Of a stretch of DNA of 20,698 nt, positions 3,854-7,849 are shown piece by piece. Numbering within the stretch: the first letter of the stretch is position 1; every line of letters begins with the position of its first letter. This stretch comes from a virus: positions 1-20,698 of the IMG/VR virus record IMGVR_UViG_3300008117_001005; one strand, written 5' to 3'. Below the pieces are notes generated by a model that worked only from the letters and a program-made list of their open reading frames with translations, searched no databases and had not been told where the DNA came from. The translations under genes and the position numbers were made by a program.

Positions 3854-4393
3854 TTATTTTATAAATTTCTTTTTTACCAAATCTAATTTTGACCTATATT
3901 CAATAATTAGGCTTTTAAGCTCATCTTTTGTAGGTTTTGCCACCTGTCTTGCTAATTCTTGAAGGTATTCTACCGTACCCGGTCTTTCCTCGTCTAGTTT
4001 TTTGGCGTAAACGTCCAAATTACCAGATAAAAACACATTATCGTGTTCCGATTGTGGCTTACAATTTGCCTCAAGCCACCTTGTTCCTAAATTAGCTCTT
4101 GGAATAAAGTGTCCATTTTGAATTTTCGTCCATTCAATCTTTTTACCAGATGTAAAACATTCAACTATGCCTTCTTTGTTTGCATATTTGCATCTTATGT
4201 ATTGGCTAAATACATGGTCAAGATCTTGTACTAAATTTTGAAAACTTTCTCCATCTTCTTCATATTCTTCCATTCTCTTTTGCGTAGAATGTATAGTAGC
4301 GCATTGTTTGCACATTTTTTTAGAGAAATGATAATCAAATCTACCACAATTGATACAACGTTTCTTTTTAACTATTATTGTTGAGTTCCTCAT
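3854..4393 (-). CDS. ninG: NinG/Rap-like recombination protein
   Basis: This 179-aa protein matches the lambda NinG (Rap) family, structure-specific endonucleases that act on branched recombination intermediates. Seen: an N-terminal zinc knuckle Cys13-x2-Cys16 and Cys28-x2-Cys31; the segment LDHVFSQYIRCKY leading to the nuclease half; then ECFTSGKK (Cys79), NGHFIPR (His95), LEANCKPQSEHDNVFLSGN (Asn110, Cys111, His117, Asn125) and DVYAKKL, the order expected for the HNH-like core. One usual second Cys is Ser here (C-F-T-S) and a later zinc ligand appears replaced by His, so metal binding may differ. ATG at 4393 immediately follows the stop of the 42-aa gene. It ends 59 nt before a leftward terminator. 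Confidence 0.85.
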   Translation of the reverse strand: MRNSTIIVKKKRCINCGRFDYHFSKKMCKQCATIHSTQKRMEEYEEDGESFQNLVQDLDHVFSQYIRCKYANKEGIVECFTSGKKIEWTKIQNGHFIPRANLGTRWLEANCKPQSEHDNVFLSGNLDVYAKKLDEERPGTVEYLQELARQVAKPTKDELKSLIIEYRSKLDLVKKKFIK

Positions 4394-4841: not shown

Positions 4842-5603
4842 ATGGCTAAAAGATTCACTGACACAGAGAAGTGGAAAAAACCTTTCATAAGGGGCTTACA
4901 AGGGCCTTACAAGCTCCTTTGGCTATACATTTGTGATGATTGTGATCATGCAGGTGTGTGGCAAGTAGATTTAGAGGTAGCTTCAATAAGAATAGGCGAA
5001 CCTTTATGTTTACCAAAAGCAATTGAATCTTTTGGAGATAAGATTGTAATTTTTGATAATGGACACAAATGGTTTATACCTTCTTTTTTAGAATTTCAGT
5101 ACCCTAGTGGACTTAATCCAGACAATAGAGCGCATAGTAGTATCATCTTTTTGCTTGAAAAATACAATTTAAGAAAAATACAAAATAAGCCCCTTACAAG
5201 CCCCTTACAAGGACGTAAGGATATGGATATGGTTAAGGATATGGATAAGGATAAGGATAAAGAAGGAAAAATTGAAAAAATTAAAATGATTTTTACAGGA
5301 ATTGAAATTGAGGAAGCGTGGGATTCTTGGAAAGAGTTTAAGCAAGCACAATACAAGTTCAAGTATAAAACTTTAAAAAGCGAACAAGCTGCATTTGATG
5401 AACTTGTCCAATTGTCCGGAAGTAATGTGCAAACAGCTATTCAAATCATAAATCAATCTATGGCTAAAGGGTGGAAAGGATTGTTTGCATTGAAAAGCGA
5501 GCCGACAAGTGGGGTAGTTAGACAAAAAAGTTGGTACGAACAAGATTTAGAAAACAAAAGGAAGGCATTTAAACCCATAGAACAACATGATAACAATATT
5601 TAA
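4842..5603 (+). CDS. Replication initiator / helicase loader
   Basis: A 253-aa protein of the type that opens replication modules in Bacteroidota phages. The N-terminal part, residues 1-110, starts MAKRFTDTEKWKKPFIRGL and is probably a winged-helix DNA-binding domain. Residues 111-147 form a charged linker of Lys-Asp repeats (KDMDMVKDMDKDKDK). The C-terminal part, about 155-216, ends in NQSMAKGWKGLF, resembling the Ala-x-x-x-x-x-x-G-W-x-G-(L/I)-F motif that ends DnaD/DnaT-like helicase-loading domains. The domain plan mirrors lambda O. The gene itself contains two pairs of CTTACAAG repeats (4895-4913, 5193-5211), a possible origin. It overlaps the primase-helicase by 17 nt, implying coupled translation. 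Confidence 0.7.
   Translation: MAKRFTDTEKWKKPFIRGLQGPYKLLWLYICDDCDHAGVWQVDLEVASIRIGEPLCLPKAIESFGDKIVIFDNGHKWFIPSFLEFQYPSGLNPDNRAHSSIIFLLEKYNLRKIQNKPLTSPLQGRKDMDMVKDMDKDKDKEGKIEKIKMIFTGIEIEEAWDSWKEFKQAQYKFKYKTLKSEQAAFDELVQLSGSNVQTAIQIINQSMAKGWKGLFALKSEPTSGVVRQKSWYEQDLENKRKAFKPIEQHDNNI
4895..4913. repeat. Initiator-gene iterons, first pair
   Basis: CTTACAAG at 4895-4902 and 4906-4913, an 11-bp period, inside the initiator gene. The two copies are read in different codon phases, so protein sequence does not explain the repeat. Confidence 0.7.
5193..5220. repeat. Initiator-gene iterons, second pair, with inverted arm
   Basis: CTTACAAG at 5193-5200 and 5204-5211, again 11 bp apart, followed by an inverted arm: CCTTAC (5203-5208) and GTAAGG (5215-5220). 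The pair lies at the junction between the DNA-binding part and the charged linker, followed by purine-rich repeats (about 5216-5275). This resembles the lambda origin, which lies inside gene O. Confidence 0.65.
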
Positions 5604-7443
5604 AAATATTTATTCTAAAGAACCCAACTATGTAACTTTAGAATACGCTTTAAATCGCATTAGGGAGGGCAAGAGTCGATTATCTGTGTCCGAGATAAGG
5701 AATACCATCGATAAAGAAAAATCTGCCAATTTAAAGAAGAATTTGCCCTCTGTGTGCTTTTCTGGAAAATTTGGTGCTGAAAGAAAGGATTCTGACCTAA
5801 TTGAGCATAGCGGGTACATAGTCTTGGATTTTGATAATATTTTTGAGTTGAGGGATCGTCAAACCGATATAATCAGCAATAAATTTGTTTACGCTTGTTG
5901 GGTTAGCCCATCAGGTAATGGATTGAAGGCTTTGATTAAAATTGCAGATGGCACTAAGCATAGAGAGCATTTTCAAGCATTGCAGGATATATTTCCTGAT
6001 ATTGACAAGAGTGGCATCAATCCAAGTAGAGTTTGTTATGAAAGCTATGATCCGGATATTTATATCAACGAAAAAGCTCAAGTTTTTAAAACCATAAAAA
6101 AGACTGAAAAGATTGTTGTCTATGAAAAAACCGATGATGATGATAAGATTTTTAAGAAACTTTTAACTTGGCTATCTAACAAAAACGAAGCATTTGTAAC
6201 CGGAGAAAGAAACAATTTTATCTTCAAATTAGCATCTGCTTGTTGTCGATATGGAATTGATGAGATTACCGCTAATTCTATGATTAATAATGAATTTTTA
6301 AGTAATTCAGAGTTTACAAAAAGGGAATCAGATAATGCTATTTCATCAGCTTACAGAACAAATAGAGGTAGATTTGGAAGTGCTTCATTTGATAAGGAAG
6401 TTTTAATTGATAAAACGTCTAGGCTAGAAGTTAAAGTAGAAAATGGGATTATTGATGAAGATGGAAGATTGAACGATGTGATTTATGGAATTGATGTAAA
6501 AGAACAAGCACTTGAATTGTATGAGCAAGGTTATGCAGCAGTAAACGGCATCAATGTAAAAGAAATGGACTTTGCATTTAAGCCAAAGAAAGGTGAAATA
6601 ACCGTATTAACAGGTATAGGAAACTATGGTAAATCTTCTTGGAAAAAGTGGTATCAAGCTATGCGTATTTTACTTTACGGAGAGAAGTTTGCTACATTTT
6701 CTCCTGAAGATAATCCACCAGAAGAATATTATCACGATTTTGTAGAGATTTTACTTGGTTGTGATTGCACTCCTGCAAATCCAAACAGACCTTCAAGACA
6801 AATTTATGAATACACATACGATTTCGTTTGCAAGCACATTTTCTATGTTTATCCAAAAAATGTAACACCTACACCGCAGTATATTATGGAAGTTTTCTTG
6901 CAATTAATTGTTAAAGAAAATGTTGATGGTGTTGATATTGATCCATTCAATCAGCTAGCAAATAATTATCAAAATTTTGGTGGAAGGGATAAATATCTTG
7001 AATGGGTTTTGTCTTTATTTTCTAGATTTTCACAAACAAATAATGTTTACTTTTGGATAATTGCGCATCCTGTTAAAATGCAAAAAGCAACAGATGGAAA
7101 CTATCCTTGTCCCGATGTTTTTGACATTGCTGATGGAGCATTATGGAATAATAAACTAGATAATATTTTAGTTTATCATAGACCATTTGGACAAACCGAT
7201 CCACAAAATCCAACTTGCGAATTTCATAGTAAAAAAATTCGTAGACAAAAAGTTGTCGGTAAAAAAGGTTTTTTTGTATTTGAAATGCTATTTAAAACTA
7301 GAAGATTCTTTTTTAATGGTTCAGACCCTATGCAAAAGGTTATGAATGAAAAAAATATAACTTTTAAAACCGAATCTACAAGAGAATTACAGCAAGGTTG
7401 GGTGCCTTATAATGATGAAAACGGAGAAGAAATAATTTTTTAA
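5587..7443 (+). CDS. Primase-helicase fusion (BT4734-like primase + DnaB-like helicase)
   Basis: A 618-aa bifunctional replication protein. The N-terminal 160 residues match the BT4734/VirE-N-type domain, related to archaeo-eukaryotic primases: KNLPSVCFSGKF (51-62), LDFDN with acidic residues Asp81 and Asp83, and SPSGNGLKALIKI (107-119). Residues 185-262 include GERNNFIFKLASACCRYGI, a PriCT-like helical segment. The C-terminal part is a RecA-fold helicase: Walker A GIGNYGKS (343-350), Walker B-like VDGVDIDPFN (446-455) and IIAHPVKM (491-498), as in Twinkle/DnaB helicases. It should unwind and prime the phage fork. It follows the initiator with a 17-nt overlap and is followed by SSB, making a compact replisome operon. 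Length and motifs look intact. Confidence 0.85.
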   Translation: MITIFKNIYSKEPNYVTLEYALNRIREGKSRLSVSEIRNTIDKEKSANLKKNLPSVCFSGKFGAERKDSDLIEHSGYIVLDFDNIFELRDRQTDIISNKFVYACWVSPSGNGLKALIKIADGTKHREHFQALQDIFPDIDKSGINPSRVCYESYDPDIYINEKAQVFKTIKKTEKIVVYEKTDDDDKIFKKLLTWLSNKNEAFVTGERNNFIFKLASACCRYGIDEITANSMINNEFLSNSEFTKRESDNAISSAYRTNRGRFGSASFDKEVLIDKTSRLEVKVENGIIDEDGRLNDVIYGIDVKEQALELYEQGYAAVNGINVKEMDFAFKPKKGEITVLTGIGNYGKSSWKKWYQAMRILLYGEKFATFSPEDNPPEEYYHDFVEILLGCDCTPANPNRPSRQIYEYTYDFVCKHIFYVYPKNVTPTPQYIMEVFLQLIVKENVDGVDIDPFNQLANNYQNFGGRDKYLEWVLSLFSRFSQTNNVYFWIIAHPVKMQKATDGNYPCPDVFDIADGALWNNKLDNILVYHRPFGQTDPQNPTCEFHSKKIRRQKVVGKKGFFVFEMLFKTRRFFFNGSDPMQKVMNEKNITFKTESTRELQQGWVPYNDENGEEIIF

Positions 7444-7459
7444 CAATAAACAATAAACA

Positions 7460-7849
7460 ATGATTAAAATGCAAGTAATCGGCTATTTAGGTCAAGACGC
7501 AATAGTCAATACCGTAAATGGCAAAACAGTTATTAATTTTTCAGTAGCACATTCTGAAAAGTATAAAAACAAAGACGGAATTGAAGTAGATAAATCAGTA
7601 TGGGTTAGTGCTGCGTATTGGACAGACAGAGTAAATGTGGCTATGTATTTAAAAAAGGGAACACAGGTTTATTTAGAAGGTTCTCCTGAAGCAAAAACTT
7701 ATACAAATAAAAATAATGAGGTAATACCACAATTACAAATAAGAGTTGCTTCATTAAACTTATTGTCAAGTTTAAAAACACAAGGAACAGGACAAGATTT
7801 TTTAACGCAGCCTAATGGATTTGAAACAAACGATATACCTTCATTCTAA
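7460..7849 (+). CDS. ssb: Single-stranded DNA-binding protein
   Basis: A 129-aa SSB with one OB fold: MQVIGYLGQDAIVN, INFSVAHSEKY, WVSAAYWTDR and the GTQVYLEGSPEAK strand, all in normal order. The C-terminus is NDIPSF, a shortened version of the acidic-hydrophobic tail (DDIPF) through which SSBs recruit partners. It coats single-stranded DNA at the fork and in recombination. Two starts are possible, ATG 7460 and ATG 7469; the second gives the more usual N-terminus. The leader has a 7-nt motif (AACAATA) repeated nearly three times. It overlaps the next gene by one base (TAATG). Confidence 0.93.
   Translation: MIKMQVIGYLGQDAIVNTVNGKTVINFSVAHSEKYKNKDGIEVDKSVWVSAAYWTDRVNVAMYLKKGTQVYLEGSPEAKTYTNKNNEVIPQLQIRVASLNLLSSLKTQGTGQDFLTQPNGFETNDIPSF

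Follow-up and report, generated by a model that had tools for sequence, protein, structure and literature searches.

A 9 bp iteron doublet inside homologous phage initiator genes from several bacterial phyla, and its inferred role as a replication origin

We infer that the coding sequence of a phage initiator gene (4842–5603, + strand) itself contains an iteron replication origin. The gene lies in a record of 20,698 bp, a linear virus fragment analysed here over its whole length and referred to as the window. We regard the inference as very probably correct, although it is supported by no binding, footprint or replication-profile data. What has been established is that the iteron sites are present, that they are conserved more than protein coding requires, and that they are concentrated in this initiator superfamily; binding by the N-terminal domain, DNA melting and the start of replication are inferred. 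Because the record is a linear fragment, other origins could exist outside it.

The initiator gene and its surroundings

The gene encodes a protein of 253 amino acids, with an N-terminal domain (approximately residues 1–108), a disordered linker (approximately residues 112–150) and a C-terminal domain of the 'replication initiation O-like' type. The C-terminal part (O-like match over residues 157–226) matched PHROG profiles phrog_678 (E = 1e-4) and phrog_18589 (E = 9e-7). The N-terminal domain had no O-family match, since PHROG matches were limited to residues 157–232, and no Pfam match. Searches of Pfam and NCBIfam detected neither a DnaD/DnaB_2 domain nor a Rep family match in the protein. 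The structural model is of low confidence (mean pLDDT 59.5, falling below 50 in the linker at residues 119–144) and found no match in the PDB; comparison of the window family with solved structures by sequence gave no meaningful match.

The initiator gene adjoins replication genes. Its end is overlapped by a primase/helicase gene (5587–7443, +; BT4734-like_N, 3.6e-15; PriCT_1; phrog_18375 primase/helicase, 2.6e-57), which is followed by the gene for a single-strand DNA-binding protein of the same replication module (7460–7849, +; Pfam SSB, 5.1e-14). GC skew becomes positive beyond ∼5 kb, but gene orientation switches at the same place. Genes of NinG/Rap type and for a YqaJ/RecE-like exonuclease (3854–4393 and 1491–2240, both −) precede the initiator gene on the other strand and suggest a lambda-like recombination module.

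The iteron unit and its sites in the window

The initial annotation had proposed CTTACAAG as the iteron, occurring twice at each of two places with an 11 bp period and in three codon phases. The occurrence and the phases held. There are exactly four copies in the 20,698 bp record (4895, 4906, 5193 and 5204, all +) against 0.92 expected, both pairs have the 11 bp period, and the codon phases are 2, 1, 0 and 2. The copies are not scattered, all four lying inside the initiator gene, and the further claim that coding does not account for them is backed by the synonymous shuffles described below. The register did not hold. Comparison with 80 relatives found by protein showed that 9 bp are kept fixed while a dinucleotide varies; the true unit is therefore AAGCCCCTT followed by a variable dinucleotide, 11 bp in all, and CTTACAAG, which is rejected as the repeat unit, is the junction between units. 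In this register, the two pairs point in opposite directions.

The second pair had been placed between the DNA-binding and loader halves of the protein; the doublet (5187–5206), a perfect one in + orientation, lies 346 nt into the gene in linker-coding DNA. Its first iteron (5187–5195, +) encodes Lys-Pro-Leu, and the second (5198–5206, +) is read in a different codon phase. A third, partial unit, AAGGACGTAAG, follows at 5209–5219 (+); in relatives it is AAGGGG and gives the palindrome CCCCTTGCAAGGGG. The window's linker sequence is AAGCCCCTT-ac-AAGCCCCTT-ac-AAGG; most relatives have AAGCCCCTTnnAAGCCCCTTgcAAGGGG or a near match. An inverted arm, CCTTAC..GTAAGG, had been noted here (∼5203–5220). 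The sequence is present, but it folds no better than shuffled DNA (z = −0.25, DNA parameters), so that a stable hairpin is unsupported; in many relatives this region is instead the palindrome CCCCTTGCAAGGGG, a third half-unit.

The other site, 298 bp upstream of the linker doublet, is AAGGGGCTT-AC-AAGGGCCTT (4889–4908, −), a reverse-orientation doublet at codons 16–23 in the N-domain coding region, with units at 4889–4897 (AAGGGGCTT) and 4900–4908 (AAGGGCCTT) and a single mismatch to the consensus (17/18). A degenerate third unit, AAGCTCCTT, continues the 11 bp period at 4911–4919 (+), and in the RSLK clade this third position forms a doublet of + orientation, AAGCCCCTTnnAAGCTCCTT. The 5′ doublet exceeds the synonymous null in RGLQG-, RSLK- and RTLK-type relatives but not in the RNLK/RNLS-type clades.

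Directly 3′ of the linker iterons is a tract of purine-rich hexamer repeats (GATAAG/GATATG; 5220–5271, +) coding for DMDMVKDMDKDKDK. These repeats had also been noted initially; they are real, and a purine-rich window in the same position recurs in homologues of other phyla. An AT-rich stretch (5266–5297, +; 88% AT) is no more than a candidate unwinding element. A second such stretch (90%) lies at 5158–5187. Unlike these flanking stretches of the window, the most AT-rich segment in relatives is ∼130 nt downstream.

Conservation of the sites beyond protein coding

Two distant 11 bp pairs of a single non-purine 8-mer are not expected from the encoded protein (P = 0.0004 in 5,000 synonymous-codon shuffles of the gene). 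Likewise, the window initiator gene reaches a doublet score of 18/18, whereas its synonymous shuffles average 13.5 (p = 0.003); five other window genes showed no doublet signal under such shuffles. Codon choice in relatives points the same way. Of the relatives with proline at linker iteron 1, 63 of 64 encode it as CCC, as do 61 of 63 at linker iteron 2, compared with 4% elsewhere in the same genes, and the first glycine at the sites is encoded by GGG in 44/44, against a background of 23%. Because the relatives are not independent, these counts indicate direction rather than exact probability. We conclude that the DNA of the iteron sites is conserved over and above what protein coding demands.

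The doublet in relatives and across phyla

We then considered how widely the doublet occurs. Among window-type relatives found by protein, and hence blind to the motif, a doublet of at least 15/18 was present in all 64, with 62 of them at 17 or more; in a proteobacterial family compared in the same motif-blind way, all 70 genes had a doublet of at least 16/18. A DNA scan of viral contigs for AAGCCCCTTNNAAGCCCCTT returned at least 120 stretches, compared with seven for the reversed pattern and 26 for a 12 bp spacing. The doublet lay inside a homologous initiator ORF in 113 of 120 of these viral stretches and in 74 of 116 stretches from species-representative genomes, the ORFs being scored with N-domain profiles built from such ORFs. 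Because these profiles were seeded from motif-bearing ORFs, the identity of the scanned ORFs as initiators rests on independent annotation, namely PHROG matches of the DnaD-like, O-like or replication-initiation kind, together with named phages. Several named homologues are annotated as replication initiators and have DnaC-like or DnaB-like genes as neighbours.

The genome loci came from Pseudomonadota, Bacillota and Bacteroidota, with cultured strains that include Clostridium, Salinicoccus and Dysgonomonas; several further phyla are represented by draft or metagenome-assembled genomes, the assignment of which could be incorrect. Acinetobacter phage R3177 and Escherichia phage Fraca are examples of cultured relatives of the AAG class. 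The doublet was seen in all six classes of orientation and codon phase, and is read as peptides as different as KPLTSPLQG, EAPSKPL, EGASKGL and RGLQGAYK. In 13 host genomes there were between one and six doublets each (at most one mismatch), and none for the reversed control. Phages of no fewer than three bacterial phyla have the iteron doublet in homologous initiator genes, where it would serve as a shared address of the origin.

In Listeria phage LP-030-3, the initiator ORF (L440:1501–1978) carries no annotation and continues past the end of the linear sequence as deposited; the record was apparently opened inside the initiator gene.

A broad Bacteroidota-type N-domain profile, which included the window protein and excluded the linker, matched Firmicutes N-domains (E = 4e-10, Z = 100000), and hhalign of the same two groups gave 97.7% (E = 1.4e-12). 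The narrow window-clade profile alone reached only E = 0.018 against Firmicutes. Profile comparison detected no direct homology of the window clade to proteobacterial N-domains; the homology between these two runs via the Firmicutes family.

Other iteron classes and a possible recognition code

The unit AAGCCCCTT is not universal in the superfamily: it is absent from Geobacillus E2, Psychrobacillus PVJ1, D6E, Clostridioides CD1801 and others, in which different repeats are found. Firmicutes homologues without it mostly carry, in the same linker, another 9 bp pseudo-palindrome at 11–12 bp spacing (ATACNNTAT or ACGANNCGT). The ATACNNTAT class includes Geobacillus E2, Psychrobacillus PVJ1 and many prophages. 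A ACGATACGT repeat is found in Geobacillus PK3.5, D6E, Bacillus 268TH008 and Clostridioides CD1801, and the related ACGAATCGT and ACGATTCGT occur in Oenococcus and Streptococcus, spaced by 11 or 12 bp. With three classes defined from the DNA alone, 157 of 166 unique N-domains fell into one of them and nine into none. The units have a common form, nine bases with reverse-complementary outer triplets, and are usually followed by a purine-rich tract that different phages spell as DK, EQ or EK repeats. Possible extra classes were also noted: AAACCCTTT at 11 bp (L462), AGACCTTAT at 11 bp in a Bacteroidota-type homologue (L355), and ATCCCCCAT/ATGGGGG in Pseudanabaena phage Pan5 (L453). The N-domain of the Pan5 protein shares 59% identity with the window protein.

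The initial annotation had suggested looking for covariation of iteron and protein in relatives; in Firmicutes-type proteins, one residue tracks the iteron. A single alignment column fully separates the AAG from the ATA classes in 52 Firmicutes-type N-domains (21 Asn versus 30 Lys and one Thr). When motif-found members were added, Asn accompanied AAGCCCCTT in 29/30 and Lys accompanied ATACNNTAT in 29/30. In the model of a Firmicutes homologue (mean pLDDT 77.1), the residue is at the start of the helix formed by residues 97–107, after the wing; in the Geobacillus E2 type it is Lys98. The model resembled DnaD and MarR/GntR folds only weakly, with E = 0.025 at best. A DnaD/DnaB_2 domain is present in the Firmicutes homologue L109 (PF07261, 1.6e-19).

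The iteron classes require ∼4 changes on the tree, and there is one independent pair on well-supported branches and three on the best tree. With only ∼3 independent switches, statistical proof of covariation was not reached, and because the tree supports so few, we treat the link between residue and iteron as a strong lead and not as a statistical result. A strict Asn signature across all families was rejected: in proteobacterial members, where the alignment is uncertain, the nearby residue is Asn, Lys or Leu. It remains possible that the tracking in Firmicutes-type proteins reflects a protein–DNA recognition code.

A proposed mechanism of initiation

We propose that the N-terminal domain would bind the 9 bp pseudo-palindromic AAGCCCCTT iterons spaced by 11 bp, approximately one helical turn, so that protomers would line up along the same face of the helix. 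As the main site we take the doublet plus half-unit in linker-coding DNA (5187–5219), and the second the reverse-orientation doublet in the N-domain coding region. Loading would then open adjacent DNA, for which the purine-rich tract or the AT-rich stretches (within 5158–5297) are candidates, and the C-terminal domain may recruit the helicase machinery, probably the primase/helicase encoded by the next gene. The sequence of the disordered linker would simply follow from that of the origin DNA, accounting for the many peptides that are tolerated there.

Alternative explanations

The most serious alternative is that the sites are operators through which the initiator represses its own transcription, the origin being elsewhere. 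Initiators of iteron plasmids often autoregulate, and in the window clade the second doublet is near the 5′ end of the gene. However, it is the linker doublet that is conserved, and this lies 346 nt into the gene, not at a promoter; RNLK/RNLS-type relatives keep it without the 5′ site. Moreover, the purine-rich tract adjoins the linker site, and site orientation differs among phages. We therefore consider the operator explanation unlikely.

Less likely still is that the repeat is a recombination seam for swapping initiator halves, or an mRNA element regulating translation. The repeat is indeed positioned between two domains, and the 5′ and linker sites of the window are near reverse complements, making mRNA pairing conceivable. 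In other phages, however, the two sites have the same orientation or only one site is present, so the RNA pairing is not conserved and is rejected. The linker segment also folds no better than shuffles (DNA parameters), and the place can be taken by different iterons, which track a residue of the protein.

That the repeat merely follows from codon bias and a conserved peptide (KPLxSPLQG, EGASKGL) can be virtually ruled out: although some peptide readings are kept within a family, both synonymous nulls (p = 0.003 and P = 0.0004) oppose it, CCC for Pro and GGG for Gly are far above background at the sites, and across families the same DNA is translated, in all phases, into peptides that are unrelated.

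Comparison with known systems

Our preferred reading, an origin inside the initiator gene, is an arrangement already known. The lambda origin maps inside gene O, where iterons arranged as inverted repeats bind O dimers (PMC5043065). The initial annotation had likened the iterons to this origin and considered them the strongest candidate in the window; motif-blind conservation, the synonymous sites and the homologues of other phyla support that view, with replication initiation itself inferred. As in lambda, the iterons are within the coding sequence of their own initiator, and the C-terminal part of the window protein matches the O-like PHROG 678. Unlike those of lambda, they are 9 bp units at 11 bp, direct repeats and of different sequence; the N-domain belongs to another family, and the next gene encodes a primase/helicase and not a P-type loader.

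Direct repeats within the initiator's own gene are reportedly bound by SPP1 gp38 (at oriL) and by the lactococcal TP901-1 ORF13 and Tuc2009 Rep (Rep2009) (PMC6316719, PMC8965321), which are replisome organizers. Among the Firmicutes homologues, several are annotated as replisome organizers or as DnaD-like, and the window-type N-domain is homologous to Firmicutes members of the DnaD-like group, but no DnaD domain was detectable in the window protein. Iteron plasmids carry direct-repeat iterons in helix phase beside an AT-rich element (PMC5043065). The window resembles P1, F, R6K and pSC101 in having direct-repeat iterons in phase with the DNA helix, and differs from them in that its protein has no Rep family match and its iterons are inside the initiator gene. 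Plasmid iterons are ∼20 bp, compared with 9 bp here.

In the open-access literature we found no report of this iteron, of its occurrence across phyla, of interchangeable classes or of a possible code, though parts may have been described earlier; a motif search of that literature for AAGCCCCTT, AAGGGGCTT and ACGATACGT gave nothing relevant among the top results. Phage replication modules have been reviewed (Weigel and Seitz, 2006; cited in PMC9144972). Most uncultured phage genomes have no known origin, and a motif that marks origins in any reading frame and across phyla would make origins predictable from sequence. Close homologues that differ in iteron class and a few residues (for example AAGCCCCTT versus ATACGGTAT) would allow a direct specificity-swap experiment.

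Tandem arrays in Shewanella

Chromosomal tandem arrays of AAGCCCCTT with identical spacers were present in four Shewanella genomes (L587:9945–10030, L588:9979–10086, L589:9934–9997 and L590:9680–9808); the three that were counted have 6, 10 and 10 identical units. They were found by the motif itself, and three of them lie in islands that look related. The arrays may belong to satellites or defence islands that use, capture or titrate a phage origin, though chance tandem repeats are not excluded. If islands do carry the same iterons, phage replication would be tied to hijacking by satellites or to a defence that titrates the origin.

A bolder reading joins these arrays to the iteron classes. 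Its first half is an initiator–iteron superfamily of many phyla, with 9 bp pseudo-palindromes at 11–12 bp in the linker, in interchangeable specificity classes (AAGCCCCTT, ATACNNTAT and ACGANNCGT) determined by a handful of residues where a late N-domain helix begins. Its second half is the acquisition, by genomic islands with anti-phage genes, of AAGCCCCTT arrays that capture or titrate the phage initiator. Taken whole, this reading seems to us less likely than not, and we hold it only tentatively.

Three of the arrays are in islands beside an smpB-like and an integrase-like gene, both identified by eye; of the YagK/YfjJ-type genes at the array side, two were confirmed by Pfam. Viperin (pVip) and a DRT component are among the array neighbours, as is a type I restriction enzyme in the case of the fourth genome.
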